A stretch of 64,000 nucleotides of DNA from Urechidicola sp. (GTDB taxonomy: Bacteria; Bacteroidota; Bacteroidia; Flavobacteriales; Flavobacteriaceae). The translations under genes were made by a program, and so were the position numbers. The stretch covers positions 1 through 64,000 of the forward strand of contig JAQRMW010000119.1 of assembly GCA_028599075.1 (NCBI GenBank). The letters run 5' to 3'. Shown here piece after piece: positions 36,932-43,797 of the stretch (the stretch's first letter is position 1; each line of letters opens with the position of its first letter). Below the pieces are notes generated by a model. The model saw only the letters and a list, made by a program, of their open reading frames with translations, had not been told where the DNA came from and ran no database searches.

Positions 36932-38170
36932 ATGAAGATATTTGGATTTGAAATAAATCGTTCTAAGGGGCTAAATAACGCAAATGCTATAAAAGGTGAT
37001 GGAGGTAGATTAATTGCTGCTGATAAAGATTTGATAATGAAAATTGTCAACGGCTTTAAAGACAGTAGTCGTAAAGACATACAAAAATGGCGAAACGCTA
37101 TTAAGATAACGCAGCTACCCGAAAAACCTCGATACGATGCATTACAAGATTTGTACGACGATTTAATGACCGATGGTCATTTACGTGGTGAGTTAAGATT
37201 GCGTAAGTATTCAATACTCAATACGGCATTTAGTATTGTAGATAAAAGTAGCAATAAAGAAAATGAAGAGGCTACAGAATTCTTTAATCAAAAATGGTTT
37301 TATCAATTATTATCTCATGCCATCGATTCAACAATTAAGGGACACACCTTGGTTGAATTCAAAGCCTTTTATAAAGATAAAATTGAACACGTTTTAATTC
37401 CACGGCGCAATGTTGTACCACAGCAAAAAATTATTGTACCAGACTTAACCAAAGAAGATGTTGTTGATTATACTGACCCTTATTTTGAAGATTGGCTTAT
37501 TGAAATGGGTGGCGATGATGAAGATAGCAAACTCGGAATTTTAAATGACATTATACCAAACCTAATTTGGAAACGAAATGTAGCACAGTCTTGGGCAGAG
37601 TTTTGCGAAAAATTTGGAATGCCTTTAATCACAGCAACAACCAATACTACTGACACTAAAAAGCTCGATAAAATTGAGTATATGCTACAACAGTTAGGCG
37701 AAGCATCTACTGGTGTATTTCCTTTAGGAACTACGGTAGAGATAAAAGAAGCTAGTAGAACAGATGCTTATAATACTTATTTAAACTTTATCAAGTTTAA
37801 TCGTGAAGAGATAAGTGTTGCTTTAGTTGGGGGTACTATGATTATGAGTGATGGTAGTTCTCGAAGTCAATCAGAAGTACACGAACGTAATTTAGATGAT
37901 AAAATTTCTGCAGCTGAAAAACGCTCGCTAGGTTTCTTGGTAAATGATGTTGTTATTCCATTATTACGAAACCAAGGATATTCGTTCCTGAAGGAAAATG
38001 ATAAATTTATTTTCAATCAATCTCATAACCTGGACCTTGATAAATTTTGGAGTATTACTAAAGGAATAATGAAAGACTTTGATGTTGATCCTGATTGGCT
38101 CACATCTACTTTCTACGTTCCTATCGTGGGTAAAAAAAAAAATCCCAACCCAAAATCAAACCTTGAGTAA
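36932..38170 (+). CDS. Portal protein (DUF935, Mu gp29 type)
   Basis: 412 aa. DUF935 marks: early LQDLYDDLMTDGHLRGELRL (~70-89), KRNVAQSWAEFCEKFGMPLI (~215-234) and late GSSRSQSEVHERNLDDKISA. Forms the 12-mer ring for DNA packaging and tail attachment. The gene overlaps the MuF gene at its 3' end. An A-rich leader (TATAAAAATATACA) precedes the ATG, as normal for this phylum. Confidence 0.9.
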   Translation: MKIFGFEINRSKGLNNANAIKGDGGRLIAADKDLIMKIVNGFKDSSRKDIQKWRNAIKITQLPEKPRYDALQDLYDDLMTDGHLRGELRLRKYSILNTAFSIVDKSSNKENEEATEFFNQKWFYQLLSHAIDSTIKGHTLVEFKAFYKDKIEHVLIPRRNVVPQQKIIVPDLTKEDVVDYTDPYFEDWLIEMGGDDEDSKLGILNDIIPNLIWKRNVAQSWAEFCEKFGMPLITATTNTTDTKKLDKIEYMLQQLGEASTGVFPLGTTVEIKEASRTDAYNTYLNFIKFNREEISVALVGGTMIMSDGSSRSQSEVHERNLDDKISAAEKRSLGFLVNDVVIPLLRNQGYSFLKENDKFIFNQSHNLDLDKFWSITKGIMKDFDVDPDWLTSTFYVPIVGKKKNPNPKSNLE

Positions 38171-39479
38171 TGTAACTGCATTCGGAGCACGTGTCCCTAA
38201 TTATCCTGAGTCGATATGCTGCGACCACTTCGTTGCAGTTGCCTCAGGGCTTTCAGAACGCATCAAAAAAATACAGGATCAACTCGCTAAAGAAATTTAT
38301 GAGAGTAAGCAAAACCTAGATACTCAAGCACAGTTAATTGCTGAAGAGGGTTTATTAATGATAAACGGTTTGCATAATGGTTATGGTAAATTACGAGTTG
38401 AAGCTGCTTGGGATGCTCCTGATCATTTAATGCTTCAAATGATGGAATTAAACATCATTGAGTTTGCAGCTTCTAAAACCGAAGCGCGTTTTGCTGCCAT
38501 GACAGATTTGATGTTGAACCGTGATAAAAATCAAATTCGCTCATTTAGTGACTTTAAAAGCGAAGTTGATAAGTTAACCAGTAACTATAACAAAACTTGG
38601 TTAGAGACCGAGTATAACTTTTCAATTGCAACAGCTCAAAACTCAGCCGCATATATGCGCCAAAAATCAGAAGCCGAAAGTGTAACGCCGTATGTACAAT
38701 ATCAAACCGTTGGCGATGATCAGGTAAGAGACGAACACGCCTTATTAGATGGCAGAGTTTTTAATCTAAATGATAAAGAAGCAATGCGCCTTTATCCTCC
38801 AAACGGTTACAACTGCCGTTGTGAGATGATACAATATGTTGGTAATAAAGATAAAGTAATCAGTGGTAAATCCGCAGTAAAATTATTAGGTGATCAGTTT
38901 GAGGGCTCTGCTTTTAATTTTAATAGAGCTGATGCTAAACAAGTTTTTAAACGCAGTCAATTTTATACAGATGATGGTGAGGTACTAACAAAAATTAATG
39001 ATATCAGTTACGAGTCTTATAAAAATTTAACCGCTTGGAAATTATTTAAAAGCAAGTTAAAAAAACTAAAAATTGACAAGACGATTGTTCCTGGTAATAA
39101 GGATGAGTTGTTTAGATCTGATGGAAAACGTGGAAAAGTAGATTTTATGGGCTTTACAGACCATTTACAACGTAAAGTTATACTTAAAAAAGATGTTTTT
39201 GATACACATACTTCGGGTAAATACTTACAAAAAGGCGAAGTGAGACACCAGCTTTTTCCACACGTAAAAAGTGTATTGAATGATGCTGATGAAGTATGGT
39301 TAATTTCTGTAAGTGATAAGAAATACATTATGCGATATATCAAGTTTTTTGCAGATGAAGTTTTGATAATCGAAACCGAAATCGGAGCAAAAAGCAATGA
39401 AATTAAAACATGGTATAAAATGAAAACTGACGAAATTGATAGAAGAAAAGGATTGTTATTAAAAAAGCGAAAGGTTTAA
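38163..39479 (+). CDS. MuF-type head morphogenesis protein with C-terminal nuclease toxin domain
   Basis: 438 aa from the TTG at 38163 (an ATG at 38079 deep in the portal gene is less likely). The MuF part reaches to ~residue 245 with the typical DEHALLDGRVFNL, then LYPPNGYNCRCEMI. The C-terminal ~130 residues look like a PBECR-type (Barnase-EndoU-ColicinE5/D-RelE-like) nuclease: DFMGFTDHLQRKVIL, HTSGKYLQKGEVRHQLF, DEVWL, IIETEI and KTWYKM. Such MuF-toxin fusions may be carried in the virion. Immunity gene not seen. A 110-bp gap follows before the tape measure. Confidence 0.75.
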   Translation: MSNVTAFGARVPNYPESICCDHFVAVASGLSERIKKIQDQLAKEIYESKQNLDTQAQLIAEEGLLMINGLHNGYGKLRVEAAWDAPDHLMLQMMELNIIEFAASKTEARFAAMTDLMLNRDKNQIRSFSDFKSEVDKLTSNYNKTWLETEYNFSIATAQNSAAYMRQKSEAESVTPYVQYQTVGDDQVRDEHALLDGRVFNLNDKEAMRLYPPNGYNCRCEMIQYVGNKDKVISGKSAVKLLGDQFEGSAFNFNRADAKQVFKRSQFYTDDGEVLTKINDISYESYKNLTAWKLFKSKLKKLKIDKTIVPGNKDELFRSDGKRGKVDFMGFTDHLQRKVILKKDVFDTHTSGKYLQKGEVRHQLFPHVKSVLNDADEVWLISVSDKKYIMRYIKFFADEVLIIETEIGAKSNEIKTWYKMKTDEIDRRKGLLLKKRKV

Positions 39480-39589
39480 CTCTGTCTCCCATCACCGGAT
39501 AGTAGGTCGGTTTGTTCGCAATCAGTGACCGTTTAAAACCTATTCAAAGACATGAGTAAAACCCATTAGACAACAAATATATAAAAAAT

Positions 39590-41626
39590 ATGAGTGCAAC
39601 AGCAAAATTAAGATTGATTTTAGAACTAGGAAACAAGCTCTTTAACAATAAATTAGTACAAACTCAACGCAAATTAAGAAAGAGTACTGATAAAATGAAA
39701 GGCAAGTTAAAAAGCCTTAAAATATCATCTATAGATGCTTTTTCTGCTATGCGTAATGAAGTCCCTTTATTTGGCAGGGCAATGGACTTGTTAGGTAACC
39801 CCTATGTTCTTTTAACCGCAGGACTCCTTGCGGTCGTCACGCTGATGGGTAAAGCAACTGTCGAAGCCAAAAAATTCAATCATGAGTTCCTTCAGGTACA
39901 AAACTTGAATCTCGATAAAAACAATGCAGATTTAAAAACCTATAAAGGGCTTATCAGGGATACTTCTTTTGAAACTGGTAGAGGCTTGGTAGAATCAACC
40001 AAGGCATATTACGACATTCAATCTGCTCTTGGATTCTATGGTAAAGATGCCGAAAAAGTATTTAAGCAAGTAGCCAAATTTAGTACAGCTACTGGTGCAG
40101 ATTTAAACGATTCTATAAATCAAACTTCAAAAGCTATTAAAGCCTTTGGCCTAGATGCAAAGGATACCGAAATGCTGTTAGATAGCAATGCTAAAACTGT
40201 GCAAGTAGGTATTACAACCTTTAAAGAGCTGGCAAAAGTACAAACCGAGTATGCGGGTGCAGCTGCAGGTGCTGGACAAGAAGTTGATAGTGCTAATAAA
40301 CTATTTGCTGCCTTTACGTCAATTGCAAAAGATAGTAGAACTGCCGCTACCATGACCAAGACAGCTTTTATGGGATTGACCCAAAAAACAACATTAAAAG
40401 GACTTAAAGATATTGGTGTAAGTGTTTATGATGCAAACGGCGAGGTTAGAGATTTGGGCAAAATTTTGATTGATGTAGATAAGCAATTCAAAAAATTAAC
40501 TCCTAAACAAATTGATGCTGTCATCAATAAAATTGGTGGTCCAGAAGGACTCCGAGCTTTACTAACAAAAATGAAGACTGGAGCTGATGATTTATTCAAG
40601 ACATTTTACGCTTTTGACGCCTCTAAATTTAACTTAAATGATGCTCTAAAAAATGCCCATGCTGATGCAACCGTATTAGGACAGATGGTAAAAAATAGAT
40701 TCAATACTATTATGGCGCGCTTAGGCGAAAAAATTATGCCATTGGTGGTTAAAGTGCTTAATAAAGTAAATATCGTACTCACATGGATTTATGATAATTT
40801 TGAGTTGTTAGAAGATATTGTTGAATCTGTAGCTTTTGGCTTTGGTGTACTCGGTGCAAGATTACTTTATTTTCAAGGAATGGCATTATTATCAACATTC
40901 GCATCTGTTGGCTTAAGTGGTGCATTGGGTATGGTAACTTTAGGACTCCACGCTATTAAAACGGCTATCTTCAGTATTCCTATTGTTGGGTGGATTTTAT
41001 TAGCAGTTTCGGCAGTAGTATTGCTCTATAAACGATTCGATAAATTTAGAGCTGTAATCAATGGGTTGGGTGCAGTTTTAAAAGCATTCTTTGTAAATAT
41101 GTGGGAAGGGTTTAAAGATGTTCTCGGAAGCATTATAGATGGTCTAGGTGCTGTTGGAAAAATGCTTAAAGGTCTTTGGGATATGGATTGGGATAAAGTG
41201 AAAGAAGGTGCTAGTGAGTTTGGAGATGCTGTTAAAAGAGGTGTTGGAGGAGCCATAGATATGAATCCTCTCGGTAGTGCTATTAAAAATGGTAAAGAGT
41301 ATGGCAAGGCCTTTAAGGGTGCTTATGATAAAGAAATGGACAAAAGTGCTGCTGCCAAAAATAAAAAAGAGAAAGAAAAAAACTTACTAGACCCAAACAA
41401 TACTGATGAAGAAATTACAACCACCAATACCAATACTGGAGGCGATATTAATAAAGTGAGTAGTGCGGGCTCTGCACCAAAAACCATCATTATTGAAAAA
41501 ATTACTTTTAACGAGGGTGGTATCAATACCACAAATACGGTACTTAATAACATGTCTAAAGAAGAGATTGAAGAGTGGTTTAACGAGTCTATGATGAGAG
41601 TAATTAGAAATGCAGAAATGAGTTAA
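39590..41626 (+). CDS. Tail tape measure protein (TP901 type)
   Basis: 678 aa. The TP901 core is at ~85-390: FNHEFLQVQNLNLDKN, GLVESTKAYYDIQSALGFYG, FSTATGADLNDSINQTSKA. A hydrophobic part with two or three segments is at ~420-480. The tail is Lys-, Asp- and Asn-rich. It sets tail length and forms the channel core. It is coded in the + (head) operon, over 10 kb away from and opposite to its chaperones (28956-29461), which is unusual. Confidence 0.88.
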   Translation: MSATAKLRLILELGNKLFNNKLVQTQRKLRKSTDKMKGKLKSLKISSIDAFSAMRNEVPLFGRAMDLLGNPYVLLTAGLLAVVTLMGKATVEAKKFNHEFLQVQNLNLDKNNADLKTYKGLIRDTSFETGRGLVESTKAYYDIQSALGFYGKDAEKVFKQVAKFSTATGADLNDSINQTSKAIKAFGLDAKDTEMLLDSNAKTVQVGITTFKELAKVQTEYAGAAAGAGQEVDSANKLFAAFTSIAKDSRTAATMTKTAFMGLTQKTTLKGLKDIGVSVYDANGEVRDLGKILIDVDKQFKKLTPKQIDAVINKIGGPEGLRALLTKMKTGADDLFKTFYAFDASKFNLNDALKNAHADATVLGQMVKNRFNTIMARLGEKIMPLVVKVLNKVNIVLTWIYDNFELLEDIVESVAFGFGVLGARLLYFQGMALLSTFASVGLSGALGMVTLGLHAIKTAIFSIPIVGWILLAVSAVVLLYKRFDKFRAVINGLGAVLKAFFVNMWEGFKDVLGSIIDGLGAVGKMLKGLWDMDWDKVKEGASEFGDAVKRGVGGAIDMNPLGSAIKNGKEYGKAFKGAYDKEMDKSAAAKNKKEKEKNLLDPNNTDEEITTTNTNTGGDINKVSSAGSAPKTIIIEKITFNEGGINTTNTVLNNMSKEEIEEWFNESMMRVIRNAEMS

Positions 41627-42893: not shown

Positions 42894-43138
42894 TAGTTTA
42901 TGGTTTTTAAACGTTTAACATCAACTGCATTACCGTGTGTATTACACACTTTACATGTTATAAGGCGTTGCCTTATTGTTTCGCCAGTAACTAAAACAAT
43001 AGCTTTACGGCGTTGGTTTAAAACATGGTCGCAACGTAAAGTAGTGCGTATATACCAATTGCTTTTTTGTTTGGCTGTAAAATGTGCAGCAAATATTGCC
43101 ATATCTGTACTGTTTTTAAAATATTTTGTGGCTCTCAT
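42893..43138 (-). CDS. Small early phage protein with Cys/His motif, 81 aa
   Basis: 81 aa, basic. Contains CDHVLNQRRKA and CKVCNTHG, four Cys/His ligands that could bind zinc. Overlaps the BRO gene stop by 4 nt. A nucleic-acid-binding role is possible but not shown. Confidence 0.55.
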   Translation of the reverse strand: MRATKYFKNSTDMAIFAAHFTAKQKSNWYIRTTLRCDHVLNQRRKAIVLVTGETIRQRLITCKVCNTHGNAVDVKRLKTIN

Positions 43139-43797
43139 ATCGCTAAATTTAATTGACTTTCTGCTTTAAATTTACAGGAACCAGATGCTATAAGCTCTAA
43201 ACCTAACTGCGTAGTAAACCAAGATGGATGTGTATTGCCAAACAACCATATTTTGCAACTCAAAACCTGTTTTACATTTAATTTACGTGCTGTTTGGTGT
43301 GCATCTGTAGCACAACATAGCGCCTTATGGCAATCAGTAATACTAAACCAATCTATACCATTAAGGTGTATGACACGTAATTGCTTCTGGTTAAAATTTA
43401 TAGTTTTAAAAGGCACATCACGTGCATCAATAAAATCAGATTTTCGAGTTCGCTTGCCATAATAGCCATTTTTACGAATACTCGGTAAAACCTCACTGGT
43501 TACCCATTTCTGAAATGCTTTTGCTTCTGGCTTAATTGATTTAAAAATCAATCTATAAAGTCCACTCTCTGAAATCACAAGCATTTTCCTGTTTTGACCT
43601 GAATGTACTATTGGTACATTCAACTTTTCATCATTATCTAAAACTTTAAGGGCTTTAGTTGTGTGTGATAGTTCTAAAATGTCGCAAATATCTTTTGCAA
43701 CAAAAAAAGGTTCAGAATCTATGATAAGACTCCGAACCTCTTGGCTGGTAGCGTTAAATTGAAACGCCATTGGTGTACTAATTTTCTCTTTAGACAT
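43135..43797 (-). CDS. BRO-N domain antirepressor-like protein
   Basis: 220 aa. The BRO-N domain covers ~10-112 (VRSLIIDSEPFFVAKDICDI, ALKVLDNDEKLNVPIVHSGQ, ISESGLYRLIFKSIKPEA, FQKWVTSEVLPSIRKNGYYG). The C-terminal ~100 residues hold a second domain (FSITDCHKALCCATDAHQTA) not recognised. Phage BRO proteins bind DNA and often act as antirepressors. The upstream gap (43798-43961) holds several inverted repeats. Confidence 0.85.
   Translation of the reverse strand: MSKEKISTPMAFQFNATSQEVRSLIIDSEPFFVAKDICDILELSHTTKALKVLDNDEKLNVPIVHSGQNRKMLVISESGLYRLIFKSIKPEAKAFQKWVTSEVLPSIRKNGYYGKRTRKSDFIDARDVPFKTINFNQKQLRVIHLNGIDWFSITDCHKALCCATDAHQTARKLNVKQVLSCKIWLFGNTHPSWFTTQLGLELIASGSCKFKAESQLNLAI

Follow-up and report, generated by a model that had tools for sequence, protein, structure and literature searches.

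A run of eleven A residues at the boundary between the portal and MuF genes of a Mu-like prophage is likely a site of programmed transcriptional slippage, by which one region would give rise both to a plain portal protein and to a portal-MuF-PBECR2 fusion that places a predicted RNase in the portal ring for action early in infection. The run was found in a stretch of 64,000 nucleotides of Urechidicola sp. (contig JAQRMW010000119.1, positions 1 to 64,000), referred to as the window, to which all coordinates apply. We infer the slippage, the formation of both products, their location in the ring, and the delivery, activity and target of the RNase from sequence anatomy, conservation and a predicted fold.

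The portal, MuF and PBECR2 unit belongs to the virion genes of a Mu-like prophage, whose relatives point to a Bacteroidota host, and all of its features lie on the forward strand. The Mu-like neighbours encode a DUF1804/terminase small subunit-like protein, the terminase large subunit, a Gp36-like protein, the Mu portal, MuF, the tape measure and a gpG-like protein. Protease, capsid-like and tail genes are found on the opposite strand, and an integrase-core protein, an AAA protein and an S24-type repressor are encoded further to the right. The integrase-core and S24 repressor-like genes mark a temperate phage, in which a MuF domain is joined to a C-terminal enzyme or toxin domain.

The Mu-type (gp29-like) portal gene occupies positions 36932 to 38170 (PF06074 Portal_Mu, E 2.2e-68) and stops shortly past the A run at 38132 to 38142, which codes for KKK. 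Here, inside a conserved GKKK motif, the portal and MuF frames part, MuF being in frame +1 relative to the portal. The preliminary description of this DNA had correctly recognised a MuF head protein ending at 39479, as the MuF domain was matched at residues 128-223 (38544 to 38831) by PF04233 (E 2.1e-16) and by TIGR01641 phageSPP1_gp7 (E 6.6e-13). Its gene start at 38163 is, however, not credible: this TTG codon overlaps the portal stop, the MuF-PBECR2 frame is open from stop to stop between 38073 and 39479, across the A run, and homologous sequence in relatives continues upstream of 38163 into the portal. A Cys/His-containing stretch, YPESICCDHF, follows right behind the run (38202 to 38231). 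The PBECR2 domain, a predicted BECR-fold RNase, extends from 39060 to 39476, with the Pfam match covering 39153 to 39458. The 110-bp gap behind it (39480 to 39589) holds no ORF, as had been stated, and the next gene encodes the tail tape measure protein (39590 to 41626; PF10145, E 2e-27; phrog_28).

Comparison with relatives placed the junction in context. In the nearest relative among viral contigs (L002, 72% identity) portal and MuF form one ORF of 850 residues that carries a run of nine A's, and both are also fused in L003, L004 and L005. Across the family, portal and MuF were either fused or one base out of frame across the run, and many relatives carried A9, A10 or A11 at the same place, most commonly A10 followed by G, in fused and split arrangements alike. 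At eleven residues within coding sequence, the window's run exceeds the nine A's or T's at which bacterial RNA polymerase slips efficiently (PMC5009743, PMC1088944), and a change in its length joins two open frames, an arrangement conserved in homologues. The window's A11 is known from one contig and could be an assembly error.

The occurrence of such runs was determined in two sets of loci, which were clustered by single linkage at 80% nucleotide identity. For the first set, 168 sequences were searched; the 145 loci in which portal and MuF were both matched supplied the junctions, the others being dropped, and 113 clusters resulted. In these, 32 runs of at least ten A's were located in 42.5 kb of junctions as compared to a single one in 1.06 Mb elsewhere on the same strand, and this remainder contained no run of ten or more T's. 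Junction runs of eight or more were all nine to eleven long (37/37). Every one of the 37 clusters with a run of at least nine, a threshold set after the first loci had been seen, was among the 89 with a portal match better than 1e-20; the other 24 were devoid of a run. Runs of seven A's were dismissed as a general signal, as the 20 junction runs of exactly seven in this set are about the number to be expected from how often A≥7 occurs elsewhere.

The second set comprised 61 further clusters, with junctions from 92 of 110 new loci, and contained 17 A10 and seven A9 runs in 17.9 kb of junctions against four A9 and no A10 in 315 kb; most of these loci were found via an alignment of run-bearing loci and therefore share descent and are no independent draw. 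The loci of this set that came from a phylum-wide genome search are less biased and include run-bearing loci at 48-60% GC (L181, L182, L184, L186, L188 and L189), 60% GC being the highest value reached. Single-sequence scans with L122 and L112 returned few loci.

Several observations argue against an accident of coding. KKK was encoded by AAA codons only in 35 of 60 cases at junctions but in 6 of 110 elsewhere (p 3e-14, with overlapping neighbouring KKK windows each counted; relatedness of the clusters makes this and the following p values overstate independence). In the 23 fused clusters, the later stop of the two other frames was reached after a median of 5 codons, compared to 15 at control places (p 4e-8), whereas in the 14 split clusters of the same set a single frame step gives access to 277-449 codons of MuF. 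Because of these early stops in fused loci and the open frame in split loci, a slipped message would yield the plain portal from the former and the fusion from the latter, so that each arrangement can, judged from its reading frames, produce both proteins. An ATG between the run and the MuF core was present in 8/36 split run-bearing clusters as opposed to 64/94 split clusters lacking a run (p 3e-6). In the clade of the window itself, each of the eleven loci without a run has an ATG in its place.

Of 61 run-bearing clusters, 44 had a Cys/His stretch directly behind the run, a recurrence which suggests that the frame immediately following it is translated. In the Winogradskyella phage Peternella_1, which has an A10 and a split arrangement, MuF is annotated as starting with a GTG downstream of this conserved stretch. 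Speaking against the slippage reading, one of 36 runs, that of L183, did not overlap the MuF frame. Between run and MuF core the Cys/His-rich stretch takes forms such as CC.H, CGCxxC and CxCGNH, which may bind metal. As a separate observation, in L032 (Flavobacterium davisii) MuF is broken in two frames besides being split at an A9, indicating a decayed prophage or a sequencing error.

In the mechanism that we propose, RNA polymerase would slip at the A11 of positions 38132 to 38142, and part of the mRNAs would then carry an altered number of A's. These messages would be read from the portal frame directly into the MuF frame to give the portal-MuF-PBECR2 fusion, and in relatives with fused genes the slipped mRNA would instead run into an early stop and give the plain portal. 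Two proteins, plain portal and fusion, would thus arise from one region. A minority of the subunits of the ring would bear MuF-PBECR2 toward the head interior, resulting in a low copy number, and the domain, as a probably active, metal-independent RNase that has no immunity gene of its own, would act on RNA early in infection. The tethered domain may leave the head after a cleavage following assembly or may act in place; both are possible.

The same two products would be expected if ribosomes shifted by -1 at A_AAA_AAG or A_AAA_AAA within the run, without any slippage of the polymerase, an explanation which we consider rather unlikely. It draws on the prevalence of the -1 frame: in 27 of the 29 split, run-bearing loci of our phylogenetic tree MuF is in the -1 frame, and in two it is in +1. 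This excess is compatible with slippage as well, because one added A also yields the -1 frame, and the bias therefore does not discriminate between the two. A ribosomal shift needs no more than seven bases, yet the junction runs of eight or more in the first set are all of the length at which polymerase slips (PMC5009743). Furthermore, although MuF is in the -1 frame in most split relatives, as canonical -1 frameshifting would have it, MuF of the window and of L153 is in +1, which a single -1 step cannot reach. A downstream stem-loop as stimulator was rejected, since no RNA structure in common was detected behind the run in 61 sequences (mean z -0.29, 13% below -2). As the runs are nine to eleven long, a downstream structure is lacking and the window and L153 require a step other than -1, polymerase slippage is the preferred reading, and at run-bearing loci we regard it as considerably more probable than a ribosomal event.

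Ribosomal -1 frameshifting is nevertheless probably used elsewhere in the family, which lends the ribosomal explanation some further weight. In 29 split rows of the tree both the run and an ATG were missing; of these, 28 had MuF in the -1 frame, and 24 contained an X_XXY_YYZ heptamer in the overlap, A_AAT_TTY being the commonest and A_AAT_TTT one codon before the portal stop an example. In 19 of 66 split rows without a run such a heptamer was positioned exactly one codon before the portal stop, as compared to a mean of 0.44 and a maximum of 4 in 2000 draws of random portal places. Heptamers were less frequent, 12 in 37, in run-less split rows that do have an ATG. These positions look like sites of ribosomal -1 frameshifting and suggest that, as with dnaX, selection acts on the join of portal and MuF, not on the means by which it is achieved; other lineages apparently arrive at this portal-MuF join by a different route. 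A likely -1 site, T_TTT_TTC, also occurs one codon before the portal stop in L042 and L044 (Bacteroides contigs) and in L176 and L178 (of the window's class), and L042, L044 and L176 have a possible MuF ATG as well. The Bacteroides phage p00, known as Hankyphage (PMC10367356), was considered as a further case and rejected, because its MuF has an ATG of its own, which overlaps the end of the portal gene.

The tree (FastTree, with some long branches) was built from 138 of the 174 clusters, namely those with a portal match below E 1e-20 and both proteins alignable. The run was present in 54 rows, mainly in two groups, that of Peternella_1, a Winoviridae phage (24/29), and that of the window (22/30). 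By this tree, the run was gained or lost at least 11 times, and the rows that carry it changed their frame arrangement at least eight times. Portal and MuF were fused without any run in 18 rows. These run-less fusions, and the relatives in which MuF has its own ATG, such as p00, imply that a pair of products is not required everywhere or is obtained in another way.

Changes in run length at the DNA level, arising in replication as phase variation or in sequencing as an error, would require no programmed decoding at all. Phage fF4 (MN850656) can be compared with a prophage in the strain named as its host (NZ_PCMX01000018), from which it differs over 11,257 bp by one gap and no mismatch: the phage has A9 and a split arrangement, the prophage A10 and a fused one. 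The pair also counts in favour of slippage, as it displays the lability to be expected of a slippery run, unless a sequencing error mimics it. Likewise, the A11 of the window stands against the A9 of its nearest relative. Chance or error would, however, not place 32 of 33 runs of at least ten A's at one junction, and the run is kept in three frame relations, with run-less relatives carrying a -1 heptamer or an ATG in its stead, which points to decoding. In addition, most split run-bearing loci offer no ATG from which MuF could be started, so that MuF would be lost in a true break. We therefore judge a mere change in DNA or in its reading to be quite improbable. That portal and MuF are ordinary adjacent genes, with MuF starting at TTG 38163 or at ATG 38082, which lies upstream of the run in the MuF frame, and with KKK as merely a basic peptide, is in line with the MuF ATG of 64 of the 94 run-less split relatives, but is hardly tenable in view of the AAA-only coding, the stops soon met in fused loci when either of the other frames is read, the missing ATG in 28/36 split run-bearing clusters and the fusion in the nearest relative.

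The C-terminal domain was examined by profile search, residue conservation and structure prediction. A Pfam search of the window's protein yielded PBECR2 (PF18810) at residues 331-432 with E 2e-9 and 38.1 bits, above the cut-off of 27.1, bearing out the RNase-type domain that the preliminary description had predicted and had proposed to check against PBECR profiles. All 48 collected domains matched PBECR2 (E <= 0.001). The domain had been described as about 130 residues after the MuF end; the last ~139 residues do form the domain, but about 216 follow the MuF motif. The motifs YNCRCEM, KGEVRHQLF and KTWYKM are all present, and the latter two had been named as PBECR features, of which KTWYKM holds up: it contains the conserved T416 (codon at 39408 to 39410), a candidate catalytic residue that is Thr or Ser in 46/48 domains. 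The His of KGEVRHQLF, H362, was kept in 37 domains only and was rejected as the catalytic residue in favour of the upstream H349 (codon at 39207 to 39209), which is kept in 45 of the 48 and is the candidate catalytic His. R361 was kept in 46 domains, and D333, E377, W417, R428 and G430 were invariant.

An AlphaFold2 model of the domain (pLDDT 94.6, pTM 0.88) showed the topology expected of such a nuclease, as opposed to the non-nuclease fold that would have spoken against the earlier prediction, with a helix ending in the conserved His (model residues 44-50), a further helix and four strands, the Thr being located in the fourth (113-120). Foldseek of the model against the PDB gave no match at E <= 0.001, and a sequence search of solved structures gave none for the whole protein and one unrelated match, at E 0.44, for the profile. 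In a second structural comparison, the leading entries were contact-dependent-inhibition toxins (CdiA-CT), BrnT and other toxin-antitoxin chains, RelE-type toxins among them, together with a sequence-specific RNase domain; BECR-type RNases made up most of the top entries, at Z scores of 6.2 to 4 that are below the level that proves a fold. Taken together, profile, model and residues support a PBECR-type nuclease, and the window's PBECR2 is probably an ordinary, well-preserved member of its family and by prediction an active RNase.

The MuF-PBECR2 protein as such is of an already known kind. Iyer et al. (2017; PMC5512222) described MuF-PBECR and portal-MuF-PBECR proteins, list the same active-site pattern and the same domain order, and predicted the active PBECR domains of MuF orthologues to be RNases. 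Domain order and phage head context are thus alike. On how portal and MuF are joined, the available part of that account mentions neither an A run nor slippage or frameshifting.

The preliminary description had viewed the domain as an injected effector against the host or rival phages and had recommended a search for an immunity protein among nearby small genes. The nuclease part of this view is supported; the effector part is less so, as an immunity gene has no room. In accordance with what had been reported, none follows MuF directly in the window, nor in nearly all relatives. In 36 of the 40 PBECR-bearing clusters, as judged from their representatives, no more than 170 nt separate the end of MuF from the opening of a tape measure or gpG gene. 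The exceptions among these 40 include L003 and L008, which have a longer gap, in L008 with an annotated ORF of ~41 residues. An additional ORF of 176 and 186 residues lies between MuF-PBECR and the gpG gene in L023 and L026, respectively (Crocinitomicaceae contigs). By comparison, Jamet et al. found a small downstream ORF in 89.4% of 191 MuF toxins (PMC5576092), a mark of MuF polymorphic toxins that is absent from the window.

The C-termini were not the same in all MuF proteins, and the earlier prediction stands on this point, too. Close relatives retain PBECR2, and the window's own clade does so throughout except for L105, whose contig ends early. Among distant relatives, CdiA_C was matched above the cut-off in L122 and below it in L153, L155 and L036, L112 has a weak PBECR2, and no C-terminal domain was recognised in L011, L043, L146, L125 and L157. 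The domain hence differs between lineages, yet is constant inside the window's clade.

Independent of how the protein is expressed, the domain might be the warhead of a polymorphic toxin directed against competitors, with its immunity gene elsewhere. MuF toxins of a similar general plan are known (PMC5576092, PMC11699363), and the variation of C-termini by lineage would be in keeping with such a role; we consider it improbable, though, as the 36 PBECR clusters in which the next gene follows closely leave no room for an immunity gene behind MuF, and PBECR2 is not swapped within the window's clade. The Bacteroides toxin Bxa, a MuF protein from a Bacteroidota prophage as well, also ends in an enzyme, but this is an ADP-ribosyltransferase, and two immunity genes lie next to it (PMC11699363), whereas the window has none there; MuF-like genes fused to VIP2 ADP-ribosyltransferases have also been mentioned (PMC10885494). 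The absence of a following immunity gene weakens the designation as polymorphic toxin, and a plain toxin-immunity system was rejected as the leading reading. Since the next gene is too close and PBECR2 is kept in close relatives, we favour, from gene spacing and conservation, an RNase of early infection over a warhead with its own immunity gene.

Delivery of the domain with the virion is plausible from published work on SPP1, in which the gp6 portal binds the MuF protein gp7 and introduces a few copies of it into the procapsid, and gp7 supports the start of infection (PMC6316719). The two SPP1 proteins are separate and held by a strong non-covalent contact (PMC6316719), unlike the covalent fusion proposed here; a minority of portal subunits with attached MuF-PBECR2 would achieve this loading covalently. 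For the expression mode, the closest parallel is dnaX of Thermus thermophilus, in which a run of nine within the gene leads to messages with extra A's (PMC5009743), in keeping with the 27 to 2 excess of the -1 frame in this family, and to two products sharing their N-terminus (PMC5009743, PMC1088944). E. coli dnaX reaches the same result by ribosomal frameshifting, resembling the alternation of run and heptamer in this family, but dnaX encodes a cellular polymerase subunit and its slippage in T. thermophilus has been shown experimentally (PMC5009743, PMC1088944), whereas portal-MuF is a virion protein with predicted slippage. The lambda-type tail chaperones G/GT are also made by a conserved phage frameshift of varying direction that supplies a minority long form for morphogenesis (PMC5009743); these are tail assembly chaperones produced by ribosomal frameshifting, as distinct from a head portal and MuF. 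Slippage or frameshifting between portal and MuF was not found in the accessible parts of the open-licence articles PMC3711429, PMC5009743, PMC10885494, PMC8776804, PMC10367356, PMC6316719, PMC2853527 and PMC1088944.

With somewhat better than even confidence, we extend this reading to the whole family of Bacteroidota Mu-like phages, in which the number of portal subunits bearing MuF and its C-terminal enzyme, and with it the dose of injected head protein, would be set, depending on the lineage, by slippage on A9-A11, by ribosomal -1 frameshifting on A_AAT_TTY or T_TTT_TTC, or by permanent fusion. If true, a pair of phage structural genes would be expressed by programmed transcriptional slippage, with slippage and frameshifting interchanging at one gene boundary, and RNA polymerase slippage would join the frameshift of the tail chaperones as a device of virion assembly. 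The loading of an injected protein in few copies would find its answer in a set share of portal subunits carrying the protein attached. Annotations of the portal/MuF boundary in many Bacteroidota phages would then be wrong, with MuF starts misplaced and genes annotated as split or fused on account of one base.

Two minor features of the locus were also noted. A protein with a BRO family N-terminal domain is encoded beside the head genes on the reverse strand (43135 to 43797; PF02498, E 1e-25). The ORF-free gap of ~100 nt between the MuF and tape measure genes recurs at similar length in relatives and may hold a regulatory signal.
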